This document shows positions 1 to 27,471 of a stretch of 50,820 nt of DNA, piece by piece (position 1 is the first letter of the stretch; each line of letters opens with the position of its first letter). Source of the DNA: an uncultured Barnesiella sp. (GTDB lineage: Bacteria > Bacteroidota > Bacteroidia > Bacteroidales > Barnesiellaceae); assembly GCA_944320015.1 (NCBI GenBank), contig CALUFO010000018.1:1-50820 (forward strand), read 5' to 3'. Below the pieces are notes generated by a model. That model was not told the origin of the DNA, searched no databases, and worked only from the letters and a program-made list of their open reading frames with translations. The translations under genes and the position numbers were made by a program.

Positions 1-1044
1 CCCTATCGGTTGAACGACACCCTACACTGGGCTTCTCAGGTCGATATACTCCCCCGTGAATTGCCTTACGAGCAAGGCGTATTTATCAGACAATCGATGA
101 ACTATGTAAACGAACTGGTCGCCAAACGCGACTACACCGCACTATCGCAGGTCTTCACCAAAATAAGCCGGTACCAGCAAAAGTGCTGTGGCGAAGATTT
201 CCCTTCGGCGACCCGGCTGCAAGCCGAGCGACTCTATAACCGCATGAACTATTCGCTGGCTCTGGCCATACTCCTCATCATCACCGGGACGGCAGCCTTT
301 GTCTACATATGCCGTCGTATCACCCGGGGAACCCCGGGCTCGACTCTTGTGCGACGGCTATTGCCGGCAGGGGTTGCTCTCGGTTTTATCTACCTCACAA
401 TCATACTGCTCCTGCGAGGCTACATCGCTGGGCACTGGCCTCTCTCCAACGGATTCGAAACCATGCAGTTCATGGCATGGTGCGCCTTGGGTATCACGAT
501 GCTGTGTTACCGTCGGTTCATACTGATCCTACCAGCCGGCTACCTCGTCGGCGGGCTGGCCATGATGGTCTCGATGATGGGCGAATCCAATCCCCAGATT
601 ACTCCGCTCATGCCGGTACTCACCTCGCCGTTGCTCTCAATACATGTTGTCCTCGTCATGGCCGCCTACACCCTGTTGGCCTTCGTCATGTTCAATGGCA
701 TAGCCGGCCTCCTGCTATACCGGCGACACCCCCGGCAGTCCGAGCAATTGCAAGTCGTGGGGCGCATACTGCTCTATCCCGCTATATTCGCTCTGGCCGC
801 CGGAATCTTTGTAGGTGCCATTTGGGCCAATATCTCGTGGGGGCGATATTGGGGGTGGGATCCCAAAGAGGTATGGGCGCTTATCACATGGCTCGTCTAC
901 GCTTTGGCTCTACACACCGAGTCACTGCCCCTGTTTAGAAAGCCTCTCTTTTTCCACGGCTTTTGTGTGGCAGCCTTCTGCTGCGTACTCATCACTTATT
1001 TCGGAGTTAATTTCCTACTGGGAGGCATGCACAGCTACGCCTGA
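1..1044 (+). CDS. ccsA: Cytochrome c biogenesis protein CcsA, 3' part
   Basis: Haem-handling membrane protein of the System II cytochrome c maturation pathway, which presents haem for attachment to periplasmic c-type cytochromes. The reading frame is open to the left edge (P-Y-R before the first possible TTG at 10), so the N-terminus lies outside the window. The visible part begins with about 80 soluble residues and then has roughly eight membrane segments. The tryptophan-rich WWD haem-binding signature is present (WGRYWGWDPKEVWALITW). A CcsA domain preceded by an extra N-terminal region is common in Bacteroidales, where the gene often follows nrfHA and a ResB-like gene; that context cannot be seen here. 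It ends 24 bp before a strong hairpin and converges on nuoN. Confidence 0.88.
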   Translation, partial: PYRLNDTLHWASQVDILPRELPYEQGVFIRQSMNYVNELVAKRDYTALSQVFTKISRYQQKCCGEDFPSATRLQAERLYNRMNYSLALAILLIITGTAAFVYICRRITRGTPGSTLVRRLLPAGVALGFIYLTIILLLRGYIAGHWPLSNGFETMQFMAWCALGITMLCYRRFILILPAGYLVGGLAMMVSMMGESNPQITPLMPVLTSPLLSIHVVLVMAAYTLLAFVMFNGIAGLLLYRRHPRQSEQLQVVGRILLYPAIFALAAGIFVGAIWANISWGRYWGWDPKEVWALITWLVYALALHTESLPLFRKPLFFHGFCVAAFCCVLITYFGVNFLLGGMHSYA

Positions 1045-1064
1045 CTTTTCTATTCCTCCTGCAT

Positions 1065-1108
1065 AAAAAGCCCGACGGCCGAAGAGCGAATGCTCTCCGG
1101 CCGTCGGC
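1065..1108 (-). terminator. Rho-independent terminator after nuoN
   Basis: Inverted repeat with arms about 1071-1087 and 1092-1108 (core CGACGGCCG / CGGCCGTCG, loop GAAT). On the minus strand it is followed by a T-run (complement of AAAAA at 1065-1069). It lies just after the nuoN stop codon and probably also limits read-through from ccsA on the plus strand. Confidence 0.8.
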
Positions 1109-1128
1109 ATTATACTGAATTGCGATTT

Positions 1129-2562
1129 TCAGATACCCAGCATACTCAAGTCGGTAAAGTAACCATACACACAGCTGGCGATACCCAGCAACAAGATACC
1201 GGCCACACACACCACGAGGCTCACGCGCGAACCGTTGTCACTGCGGAAAGGAGTGATGGCACATTCGTTCTCATTGTTAATGAACATAGCCTTTACAACC
1301 AACAGATAGTAGTAAAGCGAGATAATCGTGTTCAACAATGCGATAAGTACCAGAATGTAGAATCCCGAATGAATGGCCGAAGCAAAGATAAAGAACTTGC
1401 TGAAAAATCCGGCAAACGGCGGGATACCGGCCAAAGAGAACATGGCCAACATCATTACCACACTCAGCTTGGGATTGGTCTTGTACAACCCGTTATAGTC
1501 GTCCATACCTACCTTGCCGCTGTGATGCTCCACAGCCGAGATAACCCCGAAGGCTGCCAAGTTGGAGAAGATATATACCAGCACATAATAAACCAATGCT
1601 GTCATACCTTGTGCCGACCCTGAGATAATTCCCAACATGATATATCCGGCCTGCGAAATCGAGGAGAATGCCAGGAATCGTTTCAGGTTTTTCTGGCGAA
1701 TGGCAAACAAGTTACCCACCGTAATCGTCAAGACAATCAACGCCCACAGGATTCCTTGCCAGATAACCGGGTCGAGGAAAAAGACTTTGTAAAGAATCAA
1801 CAGCAAGGCAAACGCCGCAGACCCTTTCGAAATAACCGACAAATAAGAGGTCACTTGCGTGGGTGCTCCTTGATACACATCGGCAGTCCACAAGTGGAAC
1901 GGAACCAACGACAATTTGAATCCCATACCGGCCAGCACAAAGACCAGCGTCGCAATCAATAACGGAGTGCGGTTGGCTGCGATAGCTACCGCTATATCGC
2001 CGAAGTAAAGCGACCCAGCAACGCCATACAGGAACGAAAGACCCAGCAGGAATACCGCCGACGAGAATACCGCCGTGAAGAGGTATTTGGCTCCGGCCTC
2101 ATACGACTCACTGTCTTTTTTGGTAATGGCTATCAATGCGGCCATAGGCAACGATGCGGTTTCGAGACCGATGAAGAAAAGCAGGAAGTGCCCCGACGAA
2201 ACCATCAGGTACATACCGAAGAGTGTCACCAACAACAATTCGTAAAACTCCCCACGACGCAATTTTACATCGGCCGTATCGACCCACGAAATCGACTGCA
2301 ACAACACAATCAAGGTTCCTATATTGAGAACGGTCTTAACCACCGATGCGATCGGCGAAATCTGATACATGCCGCCGAATGCCGAGGCCGAGTCGACCGG
2401 TATGATATTCCAGATTGTATGCAGTCCGAACAAGACACATGCCGCAATCGATAATCCTTTGAGGCTCTTTTGACCGCCAAAGGTGTCAATAAGAAATATC
2501 AGCAAGAACACAACCAGCAGCGATATTTCTCCGCGCATAACTAAAAACTGTGAATAATCCAT
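1129..2562 (-). CDS. nuoN: NADH-quinone oxidoreductase subunit N
   Basis: One of three antiporter-like proton-translocating subunits of the complex I membrane arm. The 477-residue product is almost wholly hydrophobic, with about 13-14 helices. It has the proton-antiporter family pattern, including a conserved region around [19 protein letters not shown] and the later [14 protein letters not shown] stretch. Length matches NuoN (about 480). It is the last gene of the nuo-atp block, 11 bp after nuoM, and is followed by a strong terminator. NuoN differs from NuoM and NuoL by length and by lacking the long C-terminal lateral helix of NuoL. Confidence 0.93.
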
Positions 2563-2573
2563 ATACTGTATGA

Positions 2574-4064
2574 TTAAAGAGCTTGAGACAACAAATTAGT
2601 AATAGGTTCTACTCCCTCGCGAATCAAATCGGAAATCCAATTGGGGAAGCAACCGATGGCAGCCACACACACGATGAGCGTGATCGCCGAAAGACGTTCC
2701 CACCACTCGGCGTCGGTCAACTCACGGTGATGCTCGTTCTGTACGGCGCCAAACAGCAACTTGCCGACAACCCGCAAAATATAAACCGCGGTGATCACTA
2801 TCGAGGTACAAGCCACTATCGTGAGTACCCGGCGGAAAATATCGGCATGCTCAAAGGAGCCGACAAAAATCGTCATCTCGGCTACGAAGCCGCTCAATCC
2901 CGGCAATCCCAACGAGGCCAAACCGGCGACCACATAACAAACCGACAAGAATGGCATGATTTGCATCAAGCCTCCCATCTCACGAATATCACGAGTGTGC
3001 GTACGCCCGTAAATCATACCGATGAGGGCAAAGAAGAGAGCTGTCATCAATCCGTGCGAAAGCATCTGCATCACAGCTCCGGTCATGGCTGTCGTGTTCA
3101 ACATGAGGATAGCAAACAATACCAATCCACAGTGACTTACCGACGAGTAGGCATTGATGTATTTCAAGTCGGTTTGCACACATGCGCTGAACGCTCCGTA
3201 CACCACACTGATTCCCGTAAGTATCAAGAATATCCAAGCCAGCTCGGTAGCCGCCTGAGGCATCAAATAGATAGCCACCCTGAAACAGCCATATCCTCCC
3301 AACTTCATCAGCACGCCGGCGTGCAACATCGACACGGCCGTAGGAGCCGAAGCGTGACCATCGGGAGACCATGTATGGAACGGGAACATTGCTCCCAACA
3401 CACCAAACCCGACAAACGTCATCGGGAACAGGAAGTACTGCCAGTTCATGGGAATATTGCCGTGCTCGGCAATCTCGACGACATTCATCGAGTGCAACCC
3501 CGACTGGTAGTAGATGCCCAAGATACCTATCATCAACAAGGCCGAGCCACCCATAAGCATGAGCGTAAGTTTCATGGCCGAGTAGGTCTTCCGTCCGCTA
3601 CCCCAAACACCTATCAACAAATACATAGGAATGAGGGCGACCTCGTAAAACATAAACATCGTGAAGAGGTCTACCGAAATAAAGAATCCGAATACCCCCG
3701 TAGAGAGCAACATGAACCACAAGAAGAACTCTTTGGGGAGCGGATCGATCTTCCACGATGCGAAAACTCCGGCAAACACAATAATCGACGAAAGCAGCAA
3801 CATCGCTACCGAGACTCCGTCCACACCCACCGCATAGTGAATATTCAGCGGGGCATACCACATGCGGCTATCGGTAAACAGCATGGTCGCTGTATTGCCG
3901 GCAGCACGTTCGGCCAAAAATTCAACGAGTGTATATATGGACAACGCCAACAACAAGGTTGAACCGATAACCGCTACCGTTCGTATCTGTTTCATATCTC
4001 TTGATATCCAGAGTCCCAGCATCATCAAGAGAGGGATAAGCACAAATAATGATAGAAAATTCAT
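2574..4064 (-). CDS. nuoM: NADH-quinone oxidoreductase subunit M
   Basis: Antiporter-like proton-pumping subunit of the complex I membrane domain, 496 residues with about 14 helices. Diagnostic stretches include [19 protein letters not shown] and the [12 protein letters not shown] region following a DLK motif, together with the acidic and lysine residues typical of the half-channels. Length and order (L-M-N) are canonical. It lies 35 bp after nuoL and 11 bp before nuoN, so all are very probably on one transcript. Confidence 0.94.
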
Positions 4065-4099
4065 AATGTTTCTTTAATATTTTATCGTTCAACCATCAG

Positions 4100-6016
4100 T
4101 TAAAAGCACATTGCCAATACGGCGATCAACAAAGCGCCCATAATGAATACCCACACATACCATTGGATATATCCCGACTGCAACTTGCGTATGCTGTAAG
4201 AAACTCCGTTGGTAACTGTCGCCAGCATATTCATCGTTCCGTCGACAATATGGCGGTCGAACCACGCAATGGGGCGGCAAATACGCTGGAATATGATTTT
4301 ATGGGTTACCCACATATAAAGCTCGTCCATATAGAAGCGGTGATATGCCGCCGTGTGCAAAGCGCGGAACTTGTCGGCCAACGCTTTGGGTTTCGAGTTC
4401 TCCGAACGGTACATCCAAGTGGCCAACACGATAGCGGCTACGGCCACGATAATACTCGTCGTGGCTACCGACCAGTCGAGATGTATATGATAGGCTTCGC
4501 CGTTTACCGACACAAACTCGCCGAAGGGTATGAACCCGGCCACACAAGTAACCAAAGCGAGGAATATCAACGGCAAATACATGGTCTTGGGTGCCTCGTG
4601 CGGAGTGTGATGCCCATAATCGGGTTTGTTCCACCAGAAAATACGATAGTACAACCGGAACATATAGAAAGCCGTGAGACCGGCGACAGCCGTCATCCAA
4701 ACTCCCCAGAACGCACTTTTCTCGAAAGCGGCGGTAAGAATCTCGTCCTTACTGAAAAATCCCGAGAAAGGAGGTATTCCGGCTATGGCCAAGCAAGCTA
4801 TCAAGAACGTAATGTGAGTCACCGGCATATACTTGCGCAAGTTGCCCATCGCCGACATCTCGTTGGAGTGAACAGCATGGATAATGCACCCGGCGCCCAA
4901 GAACAAGAGAGCCTTGAACATAGCGTGAGTGAAGAGGTGGAACATAGAGGCCATGTAGCCGAGACCCGCATGCAGGTCGGTATCGAACGCCACGCCCAAA
5001 GCCACCATCATGAAGGCAATCTGCGAAATGGTCGAGAATGCGAGTACACGTTTTATATCGGTCTGCACACACGCCACTACCGCGGCATAGAGCGCCGTAA
5101 TGGCACCCACCCATGTAATCAGATCCAGCACCTCGGGAACAGCGCAGTACATGGGGAACAATCGAGCCACCAAATAAACACCGGCGACAACCATCGTGGC
5201 CGCGTGGATAAGTGCCGACACCGGCGTGGGGCCTTCCATGGCGTCGGGCAGCCAAATGTGCAACGGGAACATGGCCGATTTACCGGCACCACCCATAAAA
5301 ATGAGCGCCATCGCCCATGCGGCTACCGAGCAGCCCATGAATGTCATACCAGCCGTCTCGGTCACCAGCGACGTGGGATTGGACATCAAGGTCTGAAAAT
5401 CAAACGTCTCGGTAAAGAACGACAGGATAAGGATACCTATCAAGAAACCTAAGTCGGCGAAACGCGTAACGATAAAGGCCTTCTTCGAAGCCGATACCGC
5501 CGCAGGTTTGGTATAGTAAAAGCCGATAAGCAAGTACGACGATACACCCACCAACTCCCAGAAAATATACATCTGGAAAATATTCGTGGCCACAACCAGT
5601 CCCAGCATGGAGAAACTGAACAACGACAGGAAAGCATAATAGCGTTGGAAACCTTTCTCGCCGTGCATATAGCCCAAGCTATATATATGCACCATCAACG
5701 AGACTGTCGTGATAACAACCAGCATCATCACCGATATAGGATCCAACAAAATCCCCAAATCGATGTGCAAATGCTCGGTAAAGCGCAACCACTCGAAATT
5801 GATCGGTTGCAAGGTGTCGAATACGCCCTCGGCATTGCGCGGCATGGTGAAGTAGTTGAACGCTACCATATAGGCTACCACGGCGGTTACCGTCAACCCC
5901 ACAGTTCCCAATATACCGGCTACACGCTCGCTCAACTTATGCCCCGCAAGTCCCAAAAAGAGGAACATGCAAAGCGGAAGTAAAAGTATTATAACTGAAT
6001 ATTCCATATCGATCAA
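4100..6016 (-). CDS. nuoL: NADH-quinone oxidoreductase subunit L
   Basis: Largest antiporter-like subunit of complex I, at the distal end of the membrane arm. The product has 638 residues. Family signatures seen are FPLHIWLPDAMEGPTPVSALIHAATMVVAGV and DIKRVLAFSTISQ (split by spacer residues). A long C-terminal extension from about residue 500 fits the lateral helix that runs along the membrane arm. The gene overlaps nuoK by 4 bp, suggesting translational coupling. All recognised catalytic stretches are intact. Confidence 0.95.
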   Translation of the reverse strand: MIDMEYSVIILLLPLCMFLFLGLAGHKLSERVAGILGTVGLTVTAVVAYMVAFNYFTMPRNAEGVFDTLQPINFEWLRFTEHLHIDLGILLDPISVMMLVVITTVSLMVHIYSLGYMHGEKGFQRYYAFLSLFSFSMLGLVVATNIFQMYIFWELVGVSSYLLIGFYYTKPAAVSASKKAFIVTRFADLGFLIGILILSFFTETFDFQTLMSNPTSLVTETAGMTFMGCSVAAWAMALIFMGGAGKSAMFPLHIWLPDAMEGPTPVSALIHAATMVVAGVYLVARLFPMYCAVPEVLDLITWVGAITALYAAVVACVQTDIKRVLAFSTISQIAFMMVALGVAFDTDLHAGLGYMASMFHLFTHAMFKALLFLGAGCIIHAVHSNEMSAMGNLRKYMPVTHITFLIACLAIAGIPPFSGFFSKDEILTAAFEKSAFWGVWMTAVAGLTAFYMFRLYYRIFWWNKPDYGHHTPHEAPKTMYLPLIFLALVTCVAGFIPFGEFVSVNGEAYHIHLDWSVATTSIIVAVAAIVLATWMYRSENSKPKALADKFRALHTAAYHRFYMDELYMWVTHKIIFQRICRPIAWFDRHIVDGTMNMLATVTNGVSYSIRKLQSGYIQWYVWVFIMGALLIAVLAMCF

Positions 6017-6324
6017 TATTTCATTTTATCAAGGTTACGCACTTCAACATTCCGTATATGACGGAAGATATTGATAATGATCGCAATAGCGAGTGCCGTC
6101 TCGGCCGCGGCGATACCTATCGCAAAGAGAGTGAAAAAGAATCCCTCAAACGCCTCGGGATAAAGGTATCGGTTGAACACCACAAAATTGATGTCGGCCG
6201 CATTAAGCATCAGCTCAAGAGAGATGAGCATCGCCAGCATATTCTTACGCGTGATAAACCCGTAAACTCCGGCAAAAAACATGATGGTACTTACCACCAA
6301 ATAGGCAATCATTGGTATTTCCAT
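6013..6324 (-). CDS. nuoK: NADH-quinone oxidoreductase subunit K
   Basis: Small three-helix subunit of the complex I membrane arm (103 residues, usual length about 100). It carries the conserved glutamates in membrane helices, in the stretches LISLELMLNAADINFV and AAAETALAIAIIINIFR, which lie on the proton path between NuoH and NuoN. It starts 5 bp after the nuoJ stop and overlaps nuoL by 4 bp. The ATG (MEIPMIAYL) gives the normal family N-terminus. Confidence 0.94.
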   Translation of the reverse strand: MEIPMIAYLVVSTIMFFAGVYGFITRKNMLAMLISLELMLNAADINFVVFNRYLYPEAFEGFFFTLFAIGIAAAETALAIAIIINIFRHIRNVEVRNLDKMKY

Positions 6325-6329
6325 ATTTC

Positions 6330-6848
6330 TTATCTTTTACGGGCAATCATAATGCCTCCGATGATACATGCCAATAACAACACACTCACTGCTTCGAATG
6401 GTAACAGATACTGATACTTCTCCATGCCCATGAGCGCATGGCCTATCTCTTTCATATCAACCTCGCCTGTAATCACGCTGGTGAGCGGTTTGGTAAAGAA
6501 CGGATAGGTGAGCAACGTATATCCGCATACGATTGCTCCGAAGATCGAAGCGACAAGCCCCACTATACGTTTCTTGGCCGTCAGCAACTCCGACTTGTCG
6601 CCGGGTCGACTCGTCAACAAGATAGAGAAGACAAACAACACCACGATACCACCGGCATATACCGCCAATTGTACCGCGCCTAAGAATGTATAGTCAAGCT
6701 GAAAATAAATACCGGCTGTCGCAAAAAGCACGAACAGAAGGTAAGTGGCCGCCCGCAAAATGCGCCGCGTGGTTACCGTAAGAATCGAACAAACCACGAT
6801 GACTACCGCCAGCAAGCCGAAGATTACTTGATTTGCTATTTGTTCCAT
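6330..6848 (-). CDS. nuoJ: NADH-quinone oxidoreductase subunit J
   Basis: Membrane subunit J of complex I, with five helices in about 172 residues and a DUF/Oxidored_q3-type sequence. The conserved helix LGAVQLAVYAGGIVVLFVFSI, which forms the pi-bulge region near the quinone site, is visible. The chosen start is the ATG at 6848 (MEQIANQVIFG). An in-frame TTG at 6860 would overlap the nuoI stop and add four residues but matches the family less well. It lies between nuoI and nuoK in canonical order. Confidence 0.92.
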   Translation of the reverse strand: MEQIANQVIFGLLAVVIVVCSILTVTTRRILRAATYLLFVLFATAGIYFQLDYTFLGAVQLAVYAGGIVVLFVFSILLTSRPGDKSELLTAKKRIVGLVASIFGAIVCGYTLLTYPFFTKPLTSVITGEVDMKEIGHALMGMEKYQYLLPFEAVSVLLLACIIGGIMIARKR

Positions 6849-6856
6849 AATGTTAA

Positions 6857-7324
6857 TCAATTATTTTCCGTTGGGGTTTCGGCACGATTGAGCTGTTTCA
6901 CCAGTTTCGACCGCGTGTACACGGCGTGCTCAAATTCATTGGTGAATTTGATAGCATGGTGAGGACATGTGGTCACACACAATTGGCAAAAGGTGCAACT
7001 GCCCAAATCATACAAATATTTATCTAACACTCTCTTAGTCTTACCATCTTCGGTGGTAATCTTCGACGCCTCGATTTTGATGGTCCCGTTGGGACAATTC
7101 ATTTGACAAATACCACACGCCACACATTTGTGCTGCCCGTTCTCGTCATAAATCAAGGTCAATGTACCTCTGAATCGTTCGGGGATTTTCAGTGTCGCCC
7201 TGTTCTCGGGGTACTGTTCGGTAACTTTCCGGCTAAAAAAGTATTTACCGGTAACCCCCATTCCTTGAAGAAGGCTCAGTAATCCTTTCCAGAAAGACGT
7301 AATGTAATTTTTCAAACTTCCCAT
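6857..7324 (-). CDS. nuoI: NADH-quinone oxidoreductase subunit I, 2[4Fe-4S] ferredoxin subunit
   Basis: Peripheral-arm subunit carrying two tetranuclear Fe-S clusters (N6a and N6b) that pass electrons to NuoB. All eight ligands are present: Cys67, 70, 73, 77 and Cys110, 113, 116, 120, in two CxxCxxCxxxCP motifs. The length is 155 residues with a short amphipathic N-terminus that may anchor it to the membrane. No NuoE, F or G is found in the window, so NuoI may be the entry point from a soluble donor such as ferredoxin (inference). It is the first nuo gene after the ATP synthase genes, 100 bp downstream of atpG. Confidence 0.95.
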   Translation of the reverse strand: MGSLKNYITSFWKGLLSLLQGMGVTGKYFFSRKVTEQYPENRATLKIPERFRGTLTLIYDENGQHKCVACGICQMNCPNGTIKIEASKITTEDGKTKRVLDKYLYDLGSCTFCQLCVTTCPHHAIKFTNEFEHAVYTRSKLVKQLNRAETPTENN

Positions 7325-7398
7325 AAATTTCTTTATAGAACTTATCTATTTTTATTAGTTAACACTATGGTTTATTTCATTTTATTATATAGCGAAGC

Positions 7399-7414
7399 CG
7401 GGGGAAAGCCCCCG
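7399..7414 (-). other. GC-rich hairpin between atpG and nuoI
   Basis: A perfect 6-bp stem (CGGGGG/CCCCCG, loop AAAG on the plus strand), with weaker pairing continuing outside it, starts 11 nt after the atpG stop. On the minus strand it is followed by GCTTCGCTATATAATAAAA rather than a clear T-run. It is therefore at best a weak terminator, or an RNA-stabilising or processing hairpin that separates atp from nuoI expression. Confidence 0.5.
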
Positions 7415-7424
7415 AGCCTCATCG

Positions 7425-8303
7425 TCAATCCACTTTTCCTCCTATAATATCCAACAACTCCGAAGTGATGCTTTGCTGGCGCAGTTTGTTATATTCCAGC
7501 TGCAACTCTTCCAGCAACTCCTTAGCATTATCGTTGGCCGACTGCATGGCCATTACCCGCGCGGCCTGTTCCGAGACCCGGTTGGAACTAATGGCTTCCT
7601 GCATGCTCGACAAGACATAAAGCGGCAAGATCTCGTTATAGATCGTGTTCACATCGGGCTCAAACAAATAGGGCTTGTTGCGAACCACTTTCCCGCCCGT
7701 TGCCAACGAATCGGCCTCGATAGGCAACAACCGACGGGTGGTCACCGTCTGTTTACTGACACTCTTGTAGTGGGTGTAAACAACCTCCACCTCATCGATT
7801 TCCCCGGCGACAAACGCACGAGTCAATTCGTTTGTAAAACGAGCTATATCTTCGCCGGGACTTTTGGCCGTCATATAATCGGTAACGGCGATCTCGACTC
7901 CATCTCCCGCCAATTTCTGTGCGAAATTAGAGGCTTTCTTTCCTATCGGATAAACAACAAACATATAGTTCAGAGCCTCGTCCTTGGCTTGGTTGATAAG
8001 TTCGAGTGTACGTTTGAATAGATTCATGTTGAATGCGCCACACAACCCCTCGTCCGAACTGAGAACTACAATCGCCTTCCGTTTCACCGGACGCACCGCC
8101 GTGAGCGGCGACGAAAACTCCGCATCGGCCGAAATAAGGTGGTTGATGGTACTCTGAATCTGGTCTCTGAACGGCCTGATGCGGCGCAAAGCCAACTCGG
8201 CCTTGTGCATCTTGGCCGATGAAATCATCTTCATCGCACCGGTTATTTTCTCGGAAGAAGCGACAGAGCCGATTCGTCCTTTCAAGTCGCGCATTGATGC
8301 CAT
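7425..8303 (-). CDS. atpG: ATP synthase F1 gamma subunit
   Basis: Central rotor stalk of F1, coupling c-ring rotation to catalysis. The 292-residue protein begins MASMRDLKGRIGSV, the family N-terminus. It ends with the helical segment containing MAMQSANDNAKELLEELQLEYNKLRQQSITSELLDI (quoted in overlapping parts), the most conserved part of gamma. It follows atpA by 3 bp. It is the last gene of the ATP synthase set, then a hairpin, then nuoI. Confidence 0.96.
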   Translation of the reverse strand: MASMRDLKGRIGSVASSEKITGAMKMISSAKMHKAELALRRIRPFRDQIQSTINHLISADAEFSSPLTAVRPVKRKAIVVLSSDEGLCGAFNMNLFKRTLELINQAKDEALNYMFVVYPIGKKASNFAQKLAGDGVEIAVTDYMTAKSPGEDIARFTNELTRAFVAGEIDEVEVVYTHYKSVSKQTVTTRRLLPIEADSLATGGKVVRNKPYLFEPDVNTIYNEILPLYVLSSMQEAISSNRVSEQAARVMAMQSANDNAKELLEELQLEYNKLRQQSITSELLDIIGGKVD

Positions 8304-8306
8304 AGT

Positions 8307-9884
8307 CTATGCCTTAAATCGATTAGCTACCTCCTCGGCAACTTCGGTCATGAGAGCAGAAATCTTGTCGTCGAGATTTCCTTTCCGCAATTCGTCCATC
8401 ACCTCGTGGCTGTATTTTGACTTCAATATTTGCAAATAGAGTTTCTCAAACTCGGCGACCTTGTCGAGAGGCACATTGCGCAGCAATCCCTGCGTGCCGC
8501 AGAATATAATGGCAATCTCCTCCTCTACGGGTACAGGCGAGTATTGAGGCTGAATGAGAATACGCTCGTTCTTGCGGCCCTTGTCGATCGTCATCGCGGT
8601 CACAGGGTCGACATCGCCGCCAAACTTGGTGAACGACTCGAGCTCCCGGAACTGTGCCTGATCGATCTTGAGCGTTCCGGCAATCTTCTTCATCGCCTTC
8701 ACTTGGGCCTTACCACCCACACGAGATACCGAGATACCTACGTTAATCGCCGGACGCACACCTTGGTTGAACAAGGCGGTCTCCAAGAATATCTGCCCGT
8801 CGGTAATCGAAATCACATTCGTGGGAATATAGGCCGACACGTCGCCCGCTTGGGTCTCGATAACAGGCAAGGCCGTCAACGAGCCGCCGCCTTTCACCAT
8901 AGGTTTCATCACCTCGGGCAAGTCGTTCATCGAAGCGGCCACCTCGTCGTTGTCGATAATCTTGGCGGCACGCTCGAGCAAACGGGAGTGCAGGTAGAAT
9001 ATATCGCCCGGATAGGCCTCACGTCCCGAGGGACGGCGCAAAATCAACGAAATCTCACGGTAAGACACGGCCTGCTTCGACAAGTCGTCATAGATAACCA
9101 GCGCATGGCGGCCACTATCCCTGAAATACTCGCCGATGGCGGCACCAGCAAACGGTGCGTAATAGCGCATGGCTGCCGAGTCAGAAGCGTTGGCCGCCAA
9201 CACTACGGTATAATCGAGAGCCCCATGCGATTTCAACGTATTGACCAATGCGGCCACCGACGAGGCTTTCTGCCCGATAGCCACATAAATGCAATACAAG
9301 GGAGTCCCATTCTTGTAGTTGTCCCGTTGATTGATAATCGTATCGATAGCGATAGCCGTCTTACCGATCTGGCGGTCGCCGATAATCAACTCACGTTGCC
9401 CGCGGCCAATAGGAACCATCGAGTCGATAGCCTTAATACCGGTCTGCAAAGGCTCGTCGACAGGCTGACGGAAAATCACACCCGGAGCCTTGCGCTCGAG
9501 AGGCAACCGTATCAACTCGCCTTGAATAGGTCCGGCGCCATCGATAGGCTCGCCCAATGTATTGATAACCCGGCCGAGCAAGCCTTCACCCACAGGAAGA
9601 GAGGCGATCTCGCCCGTGCGGCGGGCTGTCATATTCTCGGTTACCTTATCGACATTATCAAACAAGATGACACCCACATTGCTCTCTTCGAGGTTCATGG
9701 CCACGCCGTGCACACCGTTTTCAAACTCGATCAATTCGCTTGATTGCACATTCTCGAGCCCGTAAACGTGAGCCACGCCATCGCCCACTTCGAGTACGGT
9801 TCCCACTTCTTCAAAGTTTATCTTCGAATCGACCTCGTCGAGCTGCTGCTTCAAAATATCCGATATTTCACTGGGTTTAATCAT
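8307..9884 (-). CDS. atpA: ATP synthase F1 alpha subunit
   Basis: Non-catalytic nucleotide-binding subunit of the alpha3beta3 F1 head, 525 residues. The P-loop GDRQIGKT lies at residues 169-176; most alpha subunits have T where I173 stands, though GxxxxGKT is intact. The signature [14 protein letters not shown] is present. The N-terminal beta-barrel, central nucleotide-binding domain and C-terminal helical domain are all full length. It is 4 bp from atpH and 3 bp from atpG, an operon core. Confidence 0.97.
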
Positions 9885-9888
9885 AATA

Positions 9889-10431
9889 TCATTTGCTGTT
9901 TAGCAATTTCAAACGCAATTTCTTTAATTCATTATTGATCGACGCATCTAATTGCATCGAATCTACTTGAAGGACGAATCCCCCGATAATGGCAGGATCT
10001 ACCCGATAGATAAATTCCAGCTTCTTATCCGTTTGCTTCTTCATGATCCCCCCTATGCGGTCGAGGACTTTCTGGTCCAGTACGGTGGCCGTGGTTATCG
10101 TCACACGGGCAATATCGTTTGCCCGGCGATAAATATCCTGATAGGCCAGCGCGATGGCTCTCGCAAACGTTTCGCGACGATTCTTAATCACCAACCGAAC
10201 AAAACGCAGAAGATAATCGTTGGGCTTCTCACCGAAAGCCGATGACAACACCCGAACCTTATCGGCCTGTGAAAGGGCCGGGTTACCCAATGCCTTCGCC
10301 AGCGCGGGGTGAGCCGCAAAGGAGCCATCAAGCCGTTTCATCTCCTCATAAATAGGAGTAGCGACACCATGTTCCTGCGCATATTTATATAGCGCTTTCG
10401 CATATCGGCTCGGTATTAACCCTTCGTTCAT
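9889..10431 (-). CDS. atpH: ATP synthase delta subunit (OSCP)
   Basis: Peripheral-stalk cap that joins b subunits to the F1 head. The product has 180 residues, with the family N-terminus [14 protein letters not shown] and the C-terminal signature region [24 protein letters not shown]. It sits between atpF (6 bp) and atpA (4 bp), the order usual in Bacteroidota. Confidence 0.94.
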
Positions 10432-10437
10432 GTTCTA

Positions 10438-10935
10438 TTAGTTTTTATTCTCAATTTCATTCAACAGCTTGTCAATCATTTCGACCTGCGTCTTATCATC
10501 AGAAAGTTGCTTACGCATCATTTTCTCGGCTATTTGCAGGGCAAATTCGCTCACCTCCCGGCGGAATTGCAATTCCGACTCCTTGCGGGCTTGCTCGATC
10601 GACACGGCCGCAGCGTCCATCACTTTCTTCGCCTCTACCGATGCTGCTTGACGAGCCTCCTCGATAATATGGTTCTTCATCTGAGCAGCCTCGTGTAGAA
10701 TCTCCATTTGTTGTTTCTGCGCTTCGACCAAAAGAGCTTTGGCATCGGCTTGCGCGTTGTCCAACTGAGCTTTTGCCTCTTGCGCATACTCGACCCCCTT
10801 ATCGATCAGCTCGGCGCGCTCGTCGAGACTGCGTATGATATAGGGCCACGCATACTTGGCAAGAATGGCAAAAAGGATGATAAAGACAACGAACATCCAA
10901 AATACCAAGCCAAATTCGGGCGTGAACAGTTCCAT
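10438..10935 (-). CDS. atpF: ATP synthase Fo b subunit
   Basis: Peripheral-stalk subunit with one N-terminal membrane helix (about residues 8-28, FGLVFWMFVVFIILFAILAKYAW) and a long charged, alanine-rich coiled coil after it. The length of 165 residues is typical. It lies 9 bp after atpE and 6 bp before atpH. Only one b gene is present in the cluster, so the stalk is probably a homodimer. Confidence 0.94.
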   Translation of the reverse strand: MELFTPEFGLVFWMFVVFIILFAILAKYAWPYIIRSLDERAELIDKGVEYAQEAKAQLDNAQADAKALLVEAQKQQMEILHEAAQMKNHIIEEARQAASVEAKKVMDAAAVSIEQARKESELQFRREVSEFALQIAEKMMRKQLSDDKTQVEMIDKLLNEIENKN

Positions 10936-10944
10936 ATCTTATGA

Positions 10945-11211
<267 letters not shown>

Positions 11212-11229
11212 TTAGAGATTATACATTTT

Positions 11230-12309
11230 TTATTTTTCTACTTTTTCAACTTTCCCTTCATGATGACCCTCGACCTGTGCCAATGCGATGAACAGGGTCG
11301 AAAGCATGGTGAACACATAGGCTTGGATAAACGACACCAACGTGTCGATCATCAGCATGAAGAGCGAGAACAGCACCGATATCACGGTGGTAAATCCCAC
11401 TACGACTGCTCCTAAGGCGCTAAATATGAATATGAGCGAGATGAGCGACAAGATAATCATGTGCCCTCCCATCATGTTGGCAAACAAACGGACCATCAGC
11501 GCCGCCGGTTTCGTAAAGATGCCAAACACCTCGATCAACGGCATGATGGGCAACGGGAATTTCAGCCACAACGGTACATCGGGCCAAAATATCTCCTTCC
11601 AATACTCTTTGGTTCCACGCACATTGACTATGATAAAGGTACACAACGCCAATACCATCGTCACCGCAATGTTACCCGTCAGGTTGGCGCCTCCGGGGAA
11701 AATCACGATCAATCCCAACAGGTTCATCAACAGAATAAAGAAGAATATCGTGAGCAGATAAGGTGCAAAACGTGGCGCCTTGTCGCCCAGTGTACTCTTT
11801 ATCACTCCCGTATAGACAAACTCGATGAGAAACTCGATAGCGCCCACTCCCTTCTTGGGGGCTTTGAACCGGCGCTTTTTATACCAATGAGCGACCGAGA
11901 ATACACACCATGCGCACACCAATGCGGCAATAATCAACGCCAGCACATTTTTCGTAATCGACAGGTCGAGCGGCCGATAACGGTTGCCCGCATCGTCAAC
12001 CCCCTCGACTTTCCCTTTATTGGGGCCTTCCTGCGCGATATAGAAACCATTGTACGCCTGCCCGTGGTCGAGCCGATGCGACATGAACACATTCCAGTCG
12101 CCCTTGTAGTCTCTGACAATCACCGGCAGCGGTATCCTATGCTCGTGCGAGAAAGGAAGTTCCCAGCCATAACCGTCGAGCAAATGCTCAAAAATTGTCT
12201 CCTTCGGGTTAAAGGTGTTCTCCTCCCCTCCGGCCTTTTCGGCGGCCGACAACGGGAAGGCAAACGCCATGAACAAAACGGTTACTATGTATGCGATTTG
12301 TTTTCTCAT
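11230..12309 (-). CDS. atpB: ATP synthase Fo a subunit with long exported N-terminus
   Basis: Stator subunit that forms the two ion half-channels against the c ring. The essential arginine is Arg274 in the stretch MVRLFANMMGGHM. The product has 359 residues, about 90 more than E. coli subunit a. The extra length is N-terminal: a signal-peptide-like segment (residues 1-22, ending SAA) and about 95 hydrophilic residues before the first clear membrane helix near 119-140. The C-terminus is charged (HHEGKVEKVEK). Located 13 bp after atpC and 30 bp before atpE. Confidence 0.95.
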   Translation of the reverse strand: MRKQIAYIVTVLFMAFAFPLSAAEKAGGEENTFNPKETIFEHLLDGYGWELPFSHEHRIPLPVIVRDYKGDWNVFMSHRLDHGQAYNGFYIAQEGPNKGKVEGVDDAGNRYRPLDLSITKNVLALIIAALVCAWCVFSVAHWYKKRRFKAPKKGVGAIEFLIEFVYTGVIKSTLGDKAPRFAPYLLTIFFFILLMNLLGLIVIFPGGANLTGNIAVTMVLALCTFIIVNVRGTKEYWKEIFWPDVPLWLKFPLPIMPLIEVFGIFTKPAALMVRLFANMMGGHMIILSLISLIFIFSALGAVVVGFTTVISVLFSLFMLMIDTLVSFIQAYVFTMLSTLFIALAQVEGHHEGKVEKVEK

Positions 12310-12322
12310 TTCTTCTCCTCAG

Positions 12323-12556
12323 TTACCGTATGCACACTGCCACACGGTTGTTATCCACATCGACAAATCCTCCTCCCACCGGTACCGAATGGCGCTGACC
12401 AGCGGTTACATACTCAATGGTACCGGCATCGAGGGTCGAAACCAACGACGCATGATTTTCAAGAACCGTAAACGAGCCTTGCGCTCCCGGCAAAGTCACC
12501 GACTCCACCTCTCCTGTAAACAGGATTTGTTCCGAAGATATAATTTCGAGTACCAT
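12323..12556 (-). CDS. atpC: ATP synthase F1 epsilon subunit, short form
   Basis: Rotor subunit at the foot of gamma. The product has only 77 residues and covers the N-terminal beta-sandwich domain (LEIISSEQILFTGEVESV, then PGAQGSFTVLENHASLV). The C-terminal two-helix domain of the 130-140-residue E. coli type, which can inhibit ATP hydrolysis, is missing. Short epsilons are known in Bacteroidota and Chlorobi, so this is probably the native form and not a truncation. It lies 18 bp after atpD. Confidence 0.93.
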   Translation of the reverse strand: MVLEIISSEQILFTGEVESVTLPGAQGSFTVLENHASLVSTLDAGTIEYVTAGQRHSVPVGGGFVDVDNNRVAVCIR

Positions 12557-12574
12557 AATTCCCAGTTTATATAA

Positions 12575-14101
<1,527 letters not shown>

Positions 14102-14122
14102 TCAAGTATTATACTTTATTCC

Positions 14123-15199
14123 TTAAAAGTGCAAACCGAAAATGACGATAAGCACCATAATGAAAAGATTCACCAAGTTCAAAGGCAACAAATACTTCCA
14201 TTCAAGCTTCAACAACTGGTCGATTCTCAAACGAGGGAAGGTCCATTTGAACCAAATGATGACGAACGAGATCAAAACTGCTTTCCCGAAGAACCAAATT
14301 ACCGAAGGAATATAATCCATAATGGCGTTGAAACTTTCCCAGCCGGGTATATGGAGAGGCATCCAGCCGCCCAAGAACAGCAGCGAAGCAACTCCCGCAA
14401 CGATAAACAAGTTCAAATACTCGGCCAAATAGAAGAATCCGAAGTGAATACCCGAATATTCGGTGTGATACCCGGCGGTCAACTCACTCTCGGCTTCGGG
14501 AAGGTCAAACGGGCCACGGTTGGTCTCGGCGGTTCCCGCAACCAAATAAATCAAGAATGCAACGATAGCGGGGATATGACCCGTAAAGATGAACCACCCG
14601 TTGGCCTGAGCCTCCACGATACCGGTAATCGACATAGTACCGGCAAAAACCACCATCGTGAGAACCGAAAATCCTATGGACAACTCGTAACTTACCATTT
14701 GAGCACCGCTTCGTAAAGCGCCGATCAGCGTGAACTTATTGTGACTCGACCATCCGGCCAGCAAAATACCCAGCACGCCTATCGACGAAACGGCAATCAA
14801 GAAGAACACGCCAATATTGAAATCGATTACCTGCAACCCTCTACCGAAAGGCAAGCAGCCAAACGCAAGCATAGAGGCCACTATCACCAAATAGGGCGCT
14901 AAGTTGAACAGGAATTTATCGATATGATTCAACGAAATCAACTCCTTGATCAATATCTTGAACATATCGGCCACACTCTGAATAATTCCATAAGGGCCTA
15001 CACGGTTCGGGCCTAAACGGCATTGAAAGAAGGCGCAGACCTTACGTTCAAAATAAATGTAGAACAAGGCCAACACGGCATATAACAGCAGCAATACCAC
15101 GCCTATCAATACAAATTCAACAAGTAAAGCTCCCCAACCGGGCATTACGCTCCGCAACAAATTGTCAATCCAGTGGGTCACTATCGAAAAGTCGAACAT
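14123..15199 (-). CDS. nuoH: NADH-quinone oxidoreductase subunit H
   Basis: Membrane subunit that forms the quinone chamber with NuoB and NuoD and links it to the membrane arm. The product has 358 residues with about eight helices. Signatures are [20 protein letters not shown] and [20 protein letters not shown] (parts), with the glutamate-rich loop at the quinone site, and a [19 protein letters not shown]-terminal stretch. It is the last nuo gene before the ATP synthase genes, 33 bp after nuoCD. Confidence 0.95.
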
Positions 15200-15232
15200 A
15201 ACTTATTCTTTAATTGATTACTAATTAGTTTC

Positions 15233-16855
15233 TTATCTGTCCATATCGGGGATTACATAGTCGAGCGAACCGCCTATGGCTATCAAGTCGGCAATCTTCC
15301 CGCCTCGACACATCGGGTCGAGACCGGCAACCAACGGCAAGCATGCCGAATTGATTTTCAACCGGTAGGGATTCTTGTCGCCATGACTCTCGATGAATAT
15401 TCCCAACGGGCCGCGGCTGGCTTCGACCTGACGGAAGTAGCGCCCCTCGGGCAGCTTGATGATAGGCTTCATCTTCACGGCATAATCGCCCTCGGGGATA
15501 TTGTCGATGAGTTGCTCTATGATATGTATCGATTCCAATATCTCGTCCAAACGCACCATATAGCGGGCAAAAACATCGCCCTCGGTGCGAACCACCTCGT
15601 TGAACTCCACTTTGTCATACAAAGCATACGGGTGATTCTTACGCACATCGCAAGCCCAGCCCGAAGCCCGACCCGAAGGCCCGGCGATACCATACGAAAT
15701 AGCGTCCTCGCGCGAGAGAAGTCCCACCCCCTTCATACGTTGCTGGGCAATCACATTGCCCGTAAAGAGAGTGTGATATTCCTTCAACTTGGCCGGCAGA
15801 TATGCGCAGAACTCTTTCACTTTACGTTGGAAATCGGGGTGCAAATCGGCCATAAGGCCTCCGATAGTATAATAGTTGAAAGTCATGCGGGCGCCGCAAG
15901 TCTCTTCAAAAATATCGAGAATTTTCTCCCTGTCGCGGAATCCATAGAAAAACGCAGTCGTTCCGCCCAAGTCCATACAGAAAGTAGACCAGAAAAGCAA
16001 GTGCGACGAGATACGCATCAACTCGTCCATGATAGTGCGTATATATTGCGCTCTCATGGGCACCTCTATCTGCAAGGCATCCTCGATACAGAGGCATACC
16101 GCATGGCGGTTTTGTTGAGCCGACATATAATCGAGACGGTCGGCGAAGTGCAGGGTTTGGGGATAGGTGAGCGATTCGCACAACTTTTCTATACCCCGGT
16201 GTATATATCCGCAATAAACATCGACTTTCTTCACGATCTCACCGTCGAGCGAGGTGCGCAAGCGCAATACACCGTGAGTGGCGGGGTGTTGAGGACCTAT
16301 ATTCACCACAAATTCCTCGGGAGAGAAAATCGTATTGGTACGCTCTTCGAGCTTCCCGTCCTCGGTCTCGACGATGGCGTGCGTCACATCGTCGACAGCC
16401 TCGTGCTCCAAGCGAATGGGGTTCAACGCCGGGTCGGCGTTATAATCTTTTCTGAGCGGATAACCCACCCAATCGTTGCGCAGGAACAAACGCCGCATGT
16501 CGGGGTGGTTGATAAAACGTATCCCATAGAAGTCATACACTTCTCGCTCATATAAATAGGCCGATTTCCATAAATCCGAGACCGTGTGCAACAACGGATT
16601 CTCCCGGTCGGAAGTTTCGACTTTGACCGAAACCTGCGAATTATCGGCGGTGGAGGTCAAATAATAGATACACCCCATGGTCTCGCCCCAGTCCATGCCC
16701 ACGATAGAGACCAGATAATCGAAGTGCAGTTTGTCGCGCAGATAGAGCGCCAACTCATGCCACTTGGCATCGGGAACGGCAACTTCCAGAATCGCCCCTT
16801 CCACAAAGGTCGCTTCCGGCAGAAAACCGCTTATTTCTTGCTGTATGTTTGCCAT
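15233..16855 (-). CDS. nuoCD: Fused NADH-quinone oxidoreductase subunits C and D
   Basis: One 540-residue protein joining NuoC (about 1-150, with YEREVYDFYGIRFINHPDMRR parts) to NuoD (from about 183, VVNIGPQHPATHGVLRL). The D part lines the quinone pocket next to NuoB. It retains the conserved His-Tyr region (DRLDYMSAQ) and the RGPLGIFIESHGDKNPYR segment. The C-D fusion occurs in several phyla including Bacteroidota and gammaproteobacteria. It lies 14 bp after nuoB. Confidence 0.95.
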   Translation of the reverse strand: MANIQQEISGFLPEATFVEGAILEVAVPDAKWHELALYLRDKLHFDYLVSIVGMDWGETMGCIYYLTSTADNSQVSVKVETSDRENPLLHTVSDLWKSAYLYEREVYDFYGIRFINHPDMRRLFLRNDWVGYPLRKDYNADPALNPIRLEHEAVDDVTHAIVETEDGKLEERTNTIFSPEEFVVNIGPQHPATHGVLRLRTSLDGEIVKKVDVYCGYIHRGIEKLCESLTYPQTLHFADRLDYMSAQQNRHAVCLCIEDALQIEVPMRAQYIRTIMDELMRISSHLLFWSTFCMDLGGTTAFFYGFRDREKILDIFEETCGARMTFNYYTIGGLMADLHPDFQRKVKEFCAYLPAKLKEYHTLFTGNVIAQQRMKGVGLLSREDAISYGIAGPSGRASGWACDVRKNHPYALYDKVEFNEVVRTEGDVFARYMVRLDEILESIHIIEQLIDNIPEGDYAVKMKPIIKLPEGRYFRQVEASRGPLGIFIESHGDKNPYRLKINSACLPLVAGLDPMCRGGKIADLIAIGGSLDYVIPDMDR

Positions 16856-16869
16856 ATAGGTAACTTATA

Positions 16870-17454
16870 TTATTTTCCGAATACTTTCTCTCGTTTCTCT
16901 TGACGATTGACACCACCAAAGAATTTTTCCACTTTCACTTTACGTTGCAATTGCATCAAACCGTAGAACATCGCCTCGGGACGCGGTGGACAGCCCGGGA
17001 TATACACATCGACAGGGAGAATCTCCTCTACCCCTTTCAAAACATGATACGAGTTTCTGAACGGCCCGCCCGAAACGGCGCACCCTCCGGCGGCCACCAC
17101 ATACTTGGGCTCGGCCAACTGGTCGTACAAACGCTTGAGCACAGGTGCCATGCGATGAACTATCGTACCGGCGACCATCACAAAGTCGGCCTGACGCGGA
17201 CTGGCACGAGCTACTTCAAACCCAAAACGGGCCATATCGTACCGCGCTGCGCCGAGCGACATAAACTCGATACCGCAGCAACTTGTCGCAAAGGTAAGCG
17301 GCCACAAAGAGTTGGACCGTCCCCAGTTGATGAGCTCATCGAGACAGCCCACCACCACATTGGTGTGCGCCGCTTTAAGCTCGGCAATAAGATGCTCAAT
17401 ATATTCATTGTCTTTGAAGTCTTCATACTTCATCGATTTGATTTTCACTTCCAT
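16870..17454 (-). CDS. nuoB: NADH-quinone oxidoreductase subunit B
   Basis: Carries cluster N2, the terminal [4Fe-4S] centre that reduces quinone. The four ligands are Cys59-Cys60 (tandem pair in FATSCCGIEFM), Cys125 (AAGGCAVSGGPF) and Cys155 (VYIPGCPPRPE). The start used (17454) overlaps the end of nuoA by 10 bp. An internal ATG at 17433 (MKYEDFKD) is an alternative. The length of 194 residues is normal. Confidence 0.94.
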   Translation of the reverse strand: MEVKIKSMKYEDFKDNEYIEHLIAELKAAHTNVVVGCLDELINWGRSNSLWPLTFATSCCGIEFMSLGAARYDMARFGFEVARASPRQADFVMVAGTIVHRMAPVLKRLYDQLAEPKYVVAAGGCAVSGGPFRNSYHVLKGVEEILPVDVYIPGCPPRPEAMFYGLMQLQRKVKVEKFFGGVNRQEKREKVFGK

Positions 17455-17795
17455 TCAAGCGCTCCTTTCTTCCATGCGTACACCAATCCGAGGATAAGTA
17501 TCACCATGAAAAATAAAATATTAATTAATCCGGCTACACCTAAATCTTTCAATATAACCGCCCACGGGAACAAGAATACCGTTTCTACGTCGAACATCAG
17601 ATACAGTATAGCAAACAAATAATAGCCCACCTTGAACTGCATCCACGACTCGCCTCGCGAAGGGATACCGCATTCATACGCCTCGCCTTTTTGAGGGTTG
17701 AACGAGCGGGGCGAGATGAGCCCGGCTATCAACAGGGCCGCTCCTACCAACGCCAATCCGGTAATCAATACAACTACAAATAGTGCAGAATTCAT
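17445..17795 (-). CDS. nuoA: NADH-quinone oxidoreductase subunit A
   Basis: Small three-helix membrane subunit of complex I (116 residues). Signatures are NPQKGEAYECGIPSRGE, whose Cys lies in the flexible loop that senses active/deactive states in homologues, and FDVETVFLFPWA with its conserved acidic residues. It is the first gene of the nuo-atp block and is preceded by a 480-bp non-coding region with a candidate promoter. Confidence 0.94.
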   Translation of the reverse strand: MNSALFVVVLITGLALVGAALLIAGLISPRSFNPQKGEAYECGIPSRGESWMQFKVGYYLFAILYLMFDVETVFLFPWAVILKDLGVAGLINILFFMVILILGLVYAWKKGALEWK

Positions 17796-17844
17796 ACGTT
17801 AATTTAGTTTGTATTTATTTTTTACTCTCTTTCCAAAACGACAA

Positions 17845-17877
17845 AGCCCCATATTGCCGCAAACGCAATATAAGGCT
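17845..17877 (-). promoter_or_regulatory. Hairpin in the nuoA leader, attenuator-like
   Basis: Inverted repeat ATATTGC (17851-17857) / GCAATAT (17865-17871), extended by AGCC (17845-17848) / GGCT (17874-17877). Read on the minus strand it is followed by TTGTCGTTTT, a mediocre T-rich tail, 50 nt before the nuoA start. It could be a leaky terminator or a leader hairpin of the operon. Confidence 0.4.
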
Positions 17878-18110
17878 ATCCTTGTGTCTCATATATACAG
17901 AATGTCCCCTCTTCTGTGTAAAAAGAGATACGGCATCGTTGCACTTCTGCCGCGCCGGTCGCTATTGCTTCATTCCGTATAACGATAAACATATATTTCC
18001 TCGTTTTCTTTCAAGGAGTTCGGCTTATAACCTGCTTGCATTCAGCAATTAAAGACGATTCACAAACGAGCCGTTTCACGTCGAGACTACTCCTTGGAAA
18101 TTTTGTCGCA

Positions 18111-18118
18111 CAAATATA
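18111..18118 (-). promoter_or_regulatory. Candidate promoter -7 box for nuoA
   Basis: Minus-strand TATATTTG matches the Bacteroidetes -7 consensus TAnnTTTG. A TTTG (18135-18138) lies upstream, but with a 16-nt spacer, shorter than the usual 19-21. It would give a leader of about 310 nt. Confidence 0.4.
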
Positions 18119-18203
18119 CAAATTTTATTCCCAACAAAGACTCTCCCGATATGCTTTTTTATTTTTTTATCGGCAATATAGGATAATTACCCAAACAAAA
18201 AGA

Positions 18204-18245
18204 CAAAAAAATTGCGCGACAGCGGTAGTGTGGCCGTCGCGCAAT
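18204..18245 (-). terminator. Rho-independent terminator after the TPR gene
   Basis: Perfect 10-bp arms ATTGCGCGAC (18211-18220) and GTCGCGCAAT (18236-18245). On the minus strand they are followed by a seven-T run (complement of the A-run at 18204-18210). It lies 30 bp after the stop of the TPR gene and ends the ton operon before the nuo block. Confidence 0.85.
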
Positions 18246-18275
18246 CGACAATATCATTTGCTCTTATCCTAATCC

Positions 18276-19949: not shown

Positions 19950-19980
19950 TGATATATTTTTAAGTTGATAATTTCTTCAT

Positions 19981-20952: not shown

Positions 20953-20960
20953 AATCCCGA

Positions 20961-21200: not shown

Positions 21201-21297
21201 AATCCTACTTTTTTGAAAATACCCGCCACCTAAAATCACACGATAATAGGCAGCGAGTATTTATATCCATGAATCTCTTTCTTAAACAAGCGAGAGA

Positions 21298-22119: not shown

Positions 22120-22145
22120 TTTTCTTCTCTTTTAAATGTGTACTA

Positions 22146-22832: not shown

Positions 22833-22858
22833 AATTCTTTCCTTTCATGACTTTGTTA

Positions 22859-23470: not shown

Positions 23471-23499
23471 ATAATGGTCCTTTCGATTTTATGCCCGAT

Positions 23500-24826: not shown

Positions 24827-24834
24827 TAATTTTG
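24827..24834 (+). promoter_or_regulatory. Candidate promoter -7 box for nqrA
   Basis: TAATTTTG matches TAnnTTTG and lies 30 nt before the nqrA ATG. No clear TTTG was found at -33. Confidence 0.45.
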
Positions 24835-24864
24835 TGCCAAAATTCATTTTCTACAAATACCAAT

Positions 24865-27462: not shown

Positions 27463-27471
27463 AAAACGGTT

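Follow-up and report, generated by a model that had tools for sequence, protein, structure and literature searches.

The genes of an F-type ATP synthase lie within the complex I gene cluster of Barnesiella and related Bacteroidales

The stretch of DNA analysed here, called the window throughout, comprises 50,820 nt and forms contig 18 in a genome of 2.62 Mb (completeness 95.3%) from an uncultured Barnesiella sp. From 17795 down to 1129, its minus strand carries nuoA-B-CD-H, then atpD-C-B-E-F-H-A-G and then nuoI-J-K-L-M-N, that is, the genes of an F-type ATP synthase between nuoH and nuoI of complex I. Complex I and the ATP synthase are normally encoded in separate operons. A first-pass annotation, made from the letters alone, had proposed this order and the limits of each gene on one strand, and both were borne out by the 18 open reading frames (ORFs), which Pfam and NCBIfam models identify (Table 1). 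Its description of the two junctions was also accurate: the 36 bp between nuoH and atpD contain no terminator-like site, and the 100 bp between atpG and nuoI (7325-7424) contain one hairpin. The genes of the cluster are all co-directional and the gaps between them are short. The nearest named relatives of the window are Barnesiella: its NuoH is 98% identical to that of Candidatus Barnesiella excrementigallinarum and 94% identical to those of Barnesiella sp. An22 and An55.

Table 1. Features of the nuo-atp cluster in the window, in the order in which they would be transcribed
Feature	Coordinates	Strand	Models and remarks
Predicted promoter of the whole unit	18111..18138	-	TTG, 16 nt, TATATTTG; 323 nt upstream of nuoA
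Leader hairpin, T-rich stretch next to it	17845..17877	-	terminator-like; z -4.47; no Rfam match
nuoA	17445..17795	-	PF00507
nuoB	16870..17454	-	PF01058, NF011391
nuoCD fusion	15233..16855	-	PF00329 + PF00346
nuoH	14123..15199	-	PF00146
nuoH-atpD junction, 36 bp	14087..14122	-	no terminator-like site, no TAnnTTTG in the window species
atpD (beta)	12575..14086	-	TIGR01039 769 bits, PF00006
atpC (epsilon)	12323..12556	-	77 aa, beta-sandwich domain only; PF02823; TIGR01216 match covers positions 4-76 of 130
atpB (a subunit)	11230..12309	-	PF00119, TIGR01131
atpE (c subunit)	10945..11199	-	PF00137, TIGR01260; without the Na+-binding residues of Ilyobacter tartaricus
atpF (b subunit)	10438..10935	-	PF00430
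atpH (delta)	9889..10431	-	PF00213
atpA (alpha)	8307..9884	-	TIGR00962 740 bits
atpG (gamma)	7425..8303	-	TIGR01146 258.7 bits
Hairpin in atpG-nuoI gap	7394..7420	-	-24.8 kcal/mol, z -3.60, no T-run in the window species
nuoI	6857..7324	-	TIGR01971 112 bits, slightly below the cut-off of 113.05
nuoJ	6330..6860	-	NuoJ models match below their cut-offs; place in the cluster
nuoK	6013..6324	-	NF004320 above cut-off
nuoL	4100..6016	-	TIGR01974
nuoM	2574..4064	-	TIGR01972
nuoN	1129..2562	-	TIGR01770
Terminator-like hairpin of the whole unit, 3' of nuoN	1072..1107	-	16-bp stem, T-run; z -6.48

The first-pass annotation presented the arrangement as new and local. Neither holds: in the gene-order comparison across Bacteroidales which it had itself suggested, nuoH and atpD are adjacent in seven lineages and the nuo loci read from thirteen other families are contiguous, and a 2016 paper (PMC4936053) had already described the arrangement in Muribaculaceae. 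A recent local insertion in the window species is rejected, as the arrangement occurs in seven lineages. The named loci of our comparison were chosen by NuoH similarity, as the best 80 among 361 confirmed relatives, and are not a random sample. Directly 3' of nuoH, 76 of these 80 have atpD and three have nuoI (L079, Sanguibacteroides L058 and Odoribacter L072), and the one locus left over ends at its contig edge; nuoH, atpD, atpG and nuoI are all held by 56. When protein matches covering less than half of the query are dropped, the named loci with nuoH and atpD fall from 76 to 70. An even sample of 247 Bacteroidales genomes contains a NuoH-family match in 135 and an AtpD match in 244; the two genes are adjacent in at least 18 genomes, among the matches listed, and these 18 are every sampled member of seven families (f1, f22, f26, f29, f61, f69 and f89) out of about 120. 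Further genomes were checked for two of these families, and adjacency was found in 9/9 for f1, the window's own family (L002-L010), and in 5/5 for f61. We also read 26 loci, each 6-20 kb long, in the seven lineages (L121-L146, some of them from the same genomes as named loci): atpD follows nuoH in 26/26. All 18 genes stand in order in 23; of the remaining three, L142 and L143 run into contig ends and L126 has nuoJ-N elsewhere. DNA similarity to the named loci identifies f26 as Muribaculaceae and f107 as Odoribacter; by the same measure L090 resembles f26, in spite of its label Alistipes timonensis.

Contiguous nuoH and nuoI, with a gap of 2-79 bp (32 junction rows, in which some loci are counted twice), were found in the nuo loci of families f107, f24, f60, f31, f9, f92, f109, f42, f113, f76, f20, f101 and f108. 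No sampled lineage was recognisable as Bacteroidaceae, and the state of Bacteroides is taken from PMC7002350 alone. An assembly join, which the first-pass annotation had considered, is excluded by two relatives assembled as single contigs (G008 and G253), both of which carry the full 18-gene order (L144 and L136). The arrangement is more than a chance occurrence. Among 198 genomes from the whole phylum (NuoH match in 174, AtpD match in 198), no adjacent pair is present among the matches listed besides that of the window's genome, nor did comparison of these matches by eye reveal an independent nuo-atp fusion. Four genomes of a family outside the class (f135: G520, G470, G431 and G584) have, among the matches listed, a partial AtpD match that shares a contig with nuoH at a distance of 10-13 kb and lies on the opposite strand; the two sets of genes are near each other there and do not form one operon.

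We aligned and concatenated the proteins of nine nuo genes, and likewise those of six atp genes, and built trees with FastTree. Besides the window and L121-L146, the set took in 14 interleaved named loci out of the 76, a few of which duplicate loci of the L121-L146 series; for too little sequence, L142 was dropped from both trees, and L095 and L126 from the Nuo tree. In each tree the interleaved tips are one side of a branch, with 38 of the 56 tips and a support of 1.0 for Nuo, and 40 of the 48 tips and a support of 0.999-1.0 for Atp. For the 38 interleaved tips shared by the two trees, 31 of 35 internal splits agree; with shuffled labels the mean was 0.2 and no more than 2 agreed. Both trees have the same branching, f89 first and then (f29, f61, f69) as opposed to (f22, f1, f26). 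The window locus and the Muribaculaceae locus have a common origin, since both trees place them within this one clade. The single clade, together with the near-matching branching, points to one ancestral insertion followed by vertical inheritance, which we regard as the simplest and best reading of the trees.

The separate atp loci of other families indicate what may have been inserted. Six of the 11 (f107, f60, f9, f92, f42 and f20) have all eight genes in the identical order; two f24 loci show seven genes, and three loci (f76, f101 and f108) only atpD and atpC. As separate loci elsewhere hold the present order, the atp operon would already have had it before the insertion. The proposal of the first-pass annotation that a whole, preassembled atp operon was inserted between nuoH and nuoI thus finds support in the contiguous nuoH-nuoI of other families, in the separate atp loci of the same order and in the single clade of both trees.

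We take TAnnTTTG to be the Bacteroidetes -7 motif, with TTG at -33. The promoter predicted for the whole unit in the window has counterparts in 8 other f1 loci, at -315 to -328 from nuoA. The motif was counted in the 300 nt upstream of each gene, after removal of loci with identical NuoH (89 or 90 kept), and the expected counts were obtained by Markov resampling. It precedes nuoA in 63/80 interleaved loci (16.2 expected). Upstream of the embedded atpD it occurs in 10/90 (10.9 expected), which is the chance level, and upstream of nuoI in 8/75 (4.9 expected), which is close to it. Stand-alone atpD, from ten families, has the motif in 10/11 cases (2.6 expected). The difference between embedded and stand-alone atpD has a Fisher p of about 1e-7 (embedded counted as 10/89), a value which overstates independence since the loci are related. 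When the -33 TTG is required as well, the counts become 29 for nuoA (3.1 expected), 5 for embedded atpD (2.3), 1 for nuoI (0.5) and 5 for stand-alone atpD (0.5).

The signals at gene ends were examined in the same loci. Across interleaved loci, the nuoH-atpD gap is 6-161 bp long with a median of 44 (124 rows), and the atpG-nuoI gap 6-201 bp with a median of 68 (82 rows), some loci being counted twice, in short and long versions. Folding 3' of stop codons is strongest after nuoN (mean z -4.56, n=19), moderate after atpG (mean z -1.15, n=75; z < -2 in 22/75) and absent after nuoH (mean z -0.02, n=90); the stretch of 70 nt 3' of nuoA, part of the nuoB coding sequence, scores a mean z of -1.66 as well. 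Terminator-like sites follow nuoN in 11/19 interleaved loci, atpG in 12/75 and nuoH in 2/90; the corresponding figures in stand-alone loci are 6/16, 1/6 and 0/20. Sister species of the window also show hairpins at the atpG-nuoI junction, some of them with a T-run. At the other end of the cluster, the promoter predicted in Barnesiella leaves nuoA a leader of about 300 nt. Its hairpin is kept in 8 aligned leaders, with changes on both sides in 3 of its 14 pairs and with 2 of the 14 broken in 1-2 sequences, and it may be an attenuator of the 18-gene unit. No Rfam family reached its gathering threshold within positions 1-20000 of the window, leader and gaps included.

The motif pattern, the short gaps and a strong terminator signal found only after nuoN fit one long transcription unit, in which the atp genes would have no promoter of their own. 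For the "one superoperon" of the first-pass annotation these three signals are indirect support, and an internal promoter match of E. coli type and the atpG-nuoI hairpin are to be set against it. The match, TTTGCA-16-TATAAT (10/12), lies across the nuoH-atpD gap (14135-14108), and its TATAAT/CATAAT core is kept in 6/8 gaps of the Barnesiella group; matches of this type are no commoner than in shuffles (28 found, 25.4 expected). Other observations weigh on the same side. The motif is found in only 8/19 stand-alone nuoA (3.6 expected), which means that the scan overlooks promoters, and as terminator-like sites are seen after nuoN in 11/19 interleaved and 6/16 stand-alone loci, the terminator scan overlooks many ends as well. 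For f61 and f69, no motif was found within 450 nt of nuoA in 6/7 loci. In f89, the deepest branch, the motif stands 51 nt before atpD, so that a private atp promoter may survive there, and several f1 loci (not the window) have it at -101 to -103 before atpD. It is mildly above expectation before atpE (15/77, 7.8 expected) and before nuoL (14/65, 8.7 expected), where minor internal promoters are possible. Finally, the linkage can break, and the operon is not unbreakable: in the Muribaculaceae-like genome G241, nuoJ-K-L-M-N form a cluster of their own (L188 6524-12503, contig 11) about 1 Mb from the rest (L126), and in L090 nuoI is not directly followed by nuoJ, a converging ORF of 501 aa coming next. 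Both breaks are outside the nuoH-atp-nuoI core. The trees contain one discordance: the Atp tree places Odoribacter (f107) beside the interleaved clade, and the Nuo tree puts it with Sanguibacteroides, f24, f60 and f9. A transfer of atp genes, or a relic of the donor state, are possible reasons for this mismatch.

Taken as a whole, the explanation which we consider probable is the following. An intact eight-gene atp operon of the Bacteroidales type would have been inserted once between nuoH and nuoI, in an ancestor shared by the family-level lineages, at least seven in number, that carry it today, and would have been inherited vertically with nuo ever since. In most lineages the atp genes would have lost their own promoter, and would be expressed from the promoter upstream of nuoA in a unit ending at the terminator after nuoN. 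The amounts made may be tuned by the hairpin after atpG and, in Barnesiella, also by the one in the nuoA leader. The genes encode an 11-subunit complex I without NADH module and an F-type ATP synthase, probably coupled to H+.

The alternative that deserves most attention, although we hold it unlikely, is that of two or three transcription units placed end to end (nuoA-H, atpD-G and nuoI-N), each with its own start, their adjacency being a neutral hitch-hiking so far unbroken. The TATAAT-like core that 6/8 Barnesiella-group loci retain between nuoH and atpD, the recurrent hairpin after atpG with its low z in 22/75 loci and its terminator-like form in 12/75, the motif before atpD in f89, and the split in G241, according to which nuoJ-N can live apart, would all suit such units. 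Against such units, the motif is at chance before embedded atpD and near chance before nuoI although 10/11 stand-alone atpD have it, terminator-like sites follow nuoH in 2/90 loci, and the order is kept across seven lineages. Two other histories can be set against the single insertion, and both appear to us very improbable. If the interleaved state were ancestral in Bacteroidales, contiguous nuo genes would result from later excision of atp; the Odoribacter atp genes, next to the interleaved clade in their tree and about 23 kb from a contiguous nuo on the other strand of the same contig, might be read in this way. However, with thirteen other families contiguous, many exact excisions would be needed; the phylum-wide matches listed hold no adjacent pair besides the window's, and the Nuo tree (with a root chosen by us) suggests that the interleaved families are nested inside contiguous ones. 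As to repeated independent insertions, or the horizontal spread of a ready-made 18-gene block between gut Bacteroidales, a single stretch of about 17 kb could indeed move whole, and congruence alone is compatible with the transfer of the whole block. The insertion point is nevertheless identical everywhere, the interleaved loci form one clade in both trees, and Nuo and Atp branch nearly alike within it.

The enzymes themselves bear on what this linkage could mean. The first-pass annotation had called both sets complete, which is right for the ATP synthase, all 8 subunits of which are encoded in the cluster (Pfam, NCBIfam); for complex I, nuoA, B, CD, H, I, J, K, L, M and N are all present, and "complete" applies to the 11-subunit form without NuoE, NuoF and NuoG. 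As to NuoF, the only PF01512 protein (51-kDa/RnfC-type) found in the window's genome is RnfC, and NuoE and NuoG were not searched separately. Rnf is encoded on another contig of this genome (L187). As judged from its genes, this complex I is the 11-subunit form without NADH module and is not NADH-oxidising; because the module is missing, a simple NADH-to-ATP circuit is not encoded. In the ATP synthase, the c subunit was aligned to 1yce, and Q is replaced by I and E-S-T by E-G-V, so that what we take to be the Na+ ligand set of the Ilyobacter tartaricus c subunit is absent. Because these ligands are absent, H+ coupling is likely, and the enzyme is probably an ordinary, H+-coupled F-type ATP synthase. 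For the epsilon subunit (atpC), family models match the N-terminal beta-sandwich part only, and the C-terminal helical (inhibitory) domain seems absent.

The surroundings of the cluster hold two further gene sets. A complete nqrABCDEF (Na+-pumping NADH:quinone reductase) stands at 24832-30748 on the plus strand of the window; it is divergent from nuoA and lies about 7 kb upstream of that gene. In G008, one of the single-contig relatives, nqrF is likewise found about 14 kb from nuoH, and the operons of the Na+ and H+ pumps are thus neighbours in two genomes of the genus. Between nqr and nuo, the minus strand has at 19981-24309 a run of genes for a PBP-like binding protein, for TonB, for ExbD (two genes) and for an ExbB/MotA protein; they lie upstream of the nuo-atp unit and share its strand.

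The first-pass annotation suggested that the dosage of proton pump and proton consumer could be coupled in this way. A shared operon would tie one H+ pump that does not use NADH to an ATP synthase driven by H+. Going further, we put forward tentatively, as something rather less likely than not to be the full truth, that the insertion rewired the control of the ATP synthase throughout the clade, with loss of the private atp promoter, obligate co-expression with a complex I whose electron donor would be other than NADH, the leader hairpin (in Barnesiella) as a common switch and the atpG hairpin fixing how much atp is made relative to distal nuo. If this were true, synthesis of the ATP synthase would follow one H+ pump, Nuo, and not Nqr or Rnf, and it would follow that one published Muribaculaceae genome has neither complex. 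The clade with embedded atp offers a natural test of whether co-expression of pump and ATP synthase matters in bacteria which are common in mammalian and bird guts. The nuo-atp embedding also provides a shared derived character grouping these families. Mutants of nuo in this clade need caution, as a polar nuo insertion could remove the ATP synthase too.

The window has F-type ATP synthase genes within a complex I gene cluster, as reported for S24-7/Muribaculaceae ("Ca. Homeothermaceae") by Ormerod et al. 2016 (PMC4936053), who name Barnesiella and Coprobacter as the closest characterised relatives. The Muribaculaceae locus resembles that of the window in having both enzymes at one locus and 11 of the 14 Nuo subunits, without NuoEFG, and both complexes are absent from Muribaculaceae genome H5 (PMC4936053). 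Full-text literature searching, judged by titles and the openings of abstracts, found no further report of the nuo-atp arrangement. The kind of arrangement is therefore already in print; what is likely to be new here is that its extent, gene order, likely single origin and likely promoter loss have been worked out. To the parts of PMC4936053 drawn on, which are silent on gene order, insertion point, extent outside the family, origin and transcription, our study adds the gene order, extent and origin, as well as Barnesiella and five further lineages. The nuo operon of Bacteroides fragilis (BF638R_0850-0841, PMC7002350) has, like the window, a complex I gene set without NuoEFG, but its ten locus tags, consecutive as listed in that paper, leave no atp genes inside. 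The B. fragilis complex had no NADH:quinone activity, and its deletion left NADH oxidation and mouse colonisation unchanged (PMC7002350). The atp unit of Bacteroides and Prevotella (beta-epsilon-a-c-b-delta-alpha-gamma, PMC5709465) has the same internal order as that of the window; unlike the latter, it is treated as an atp transcription unit, nuo not being mentioned in the parts of that paper drawn on here. In Odoribacter (G114: L147, L161), atpD (L161, contig 8) has no TAnnTTTG within 400 nt. The gene order of each half is like that of the window and AtpD is 81% identical, but nuo and atp form two operons there, with about 23 kb between them and with opposite orientations on one contig.

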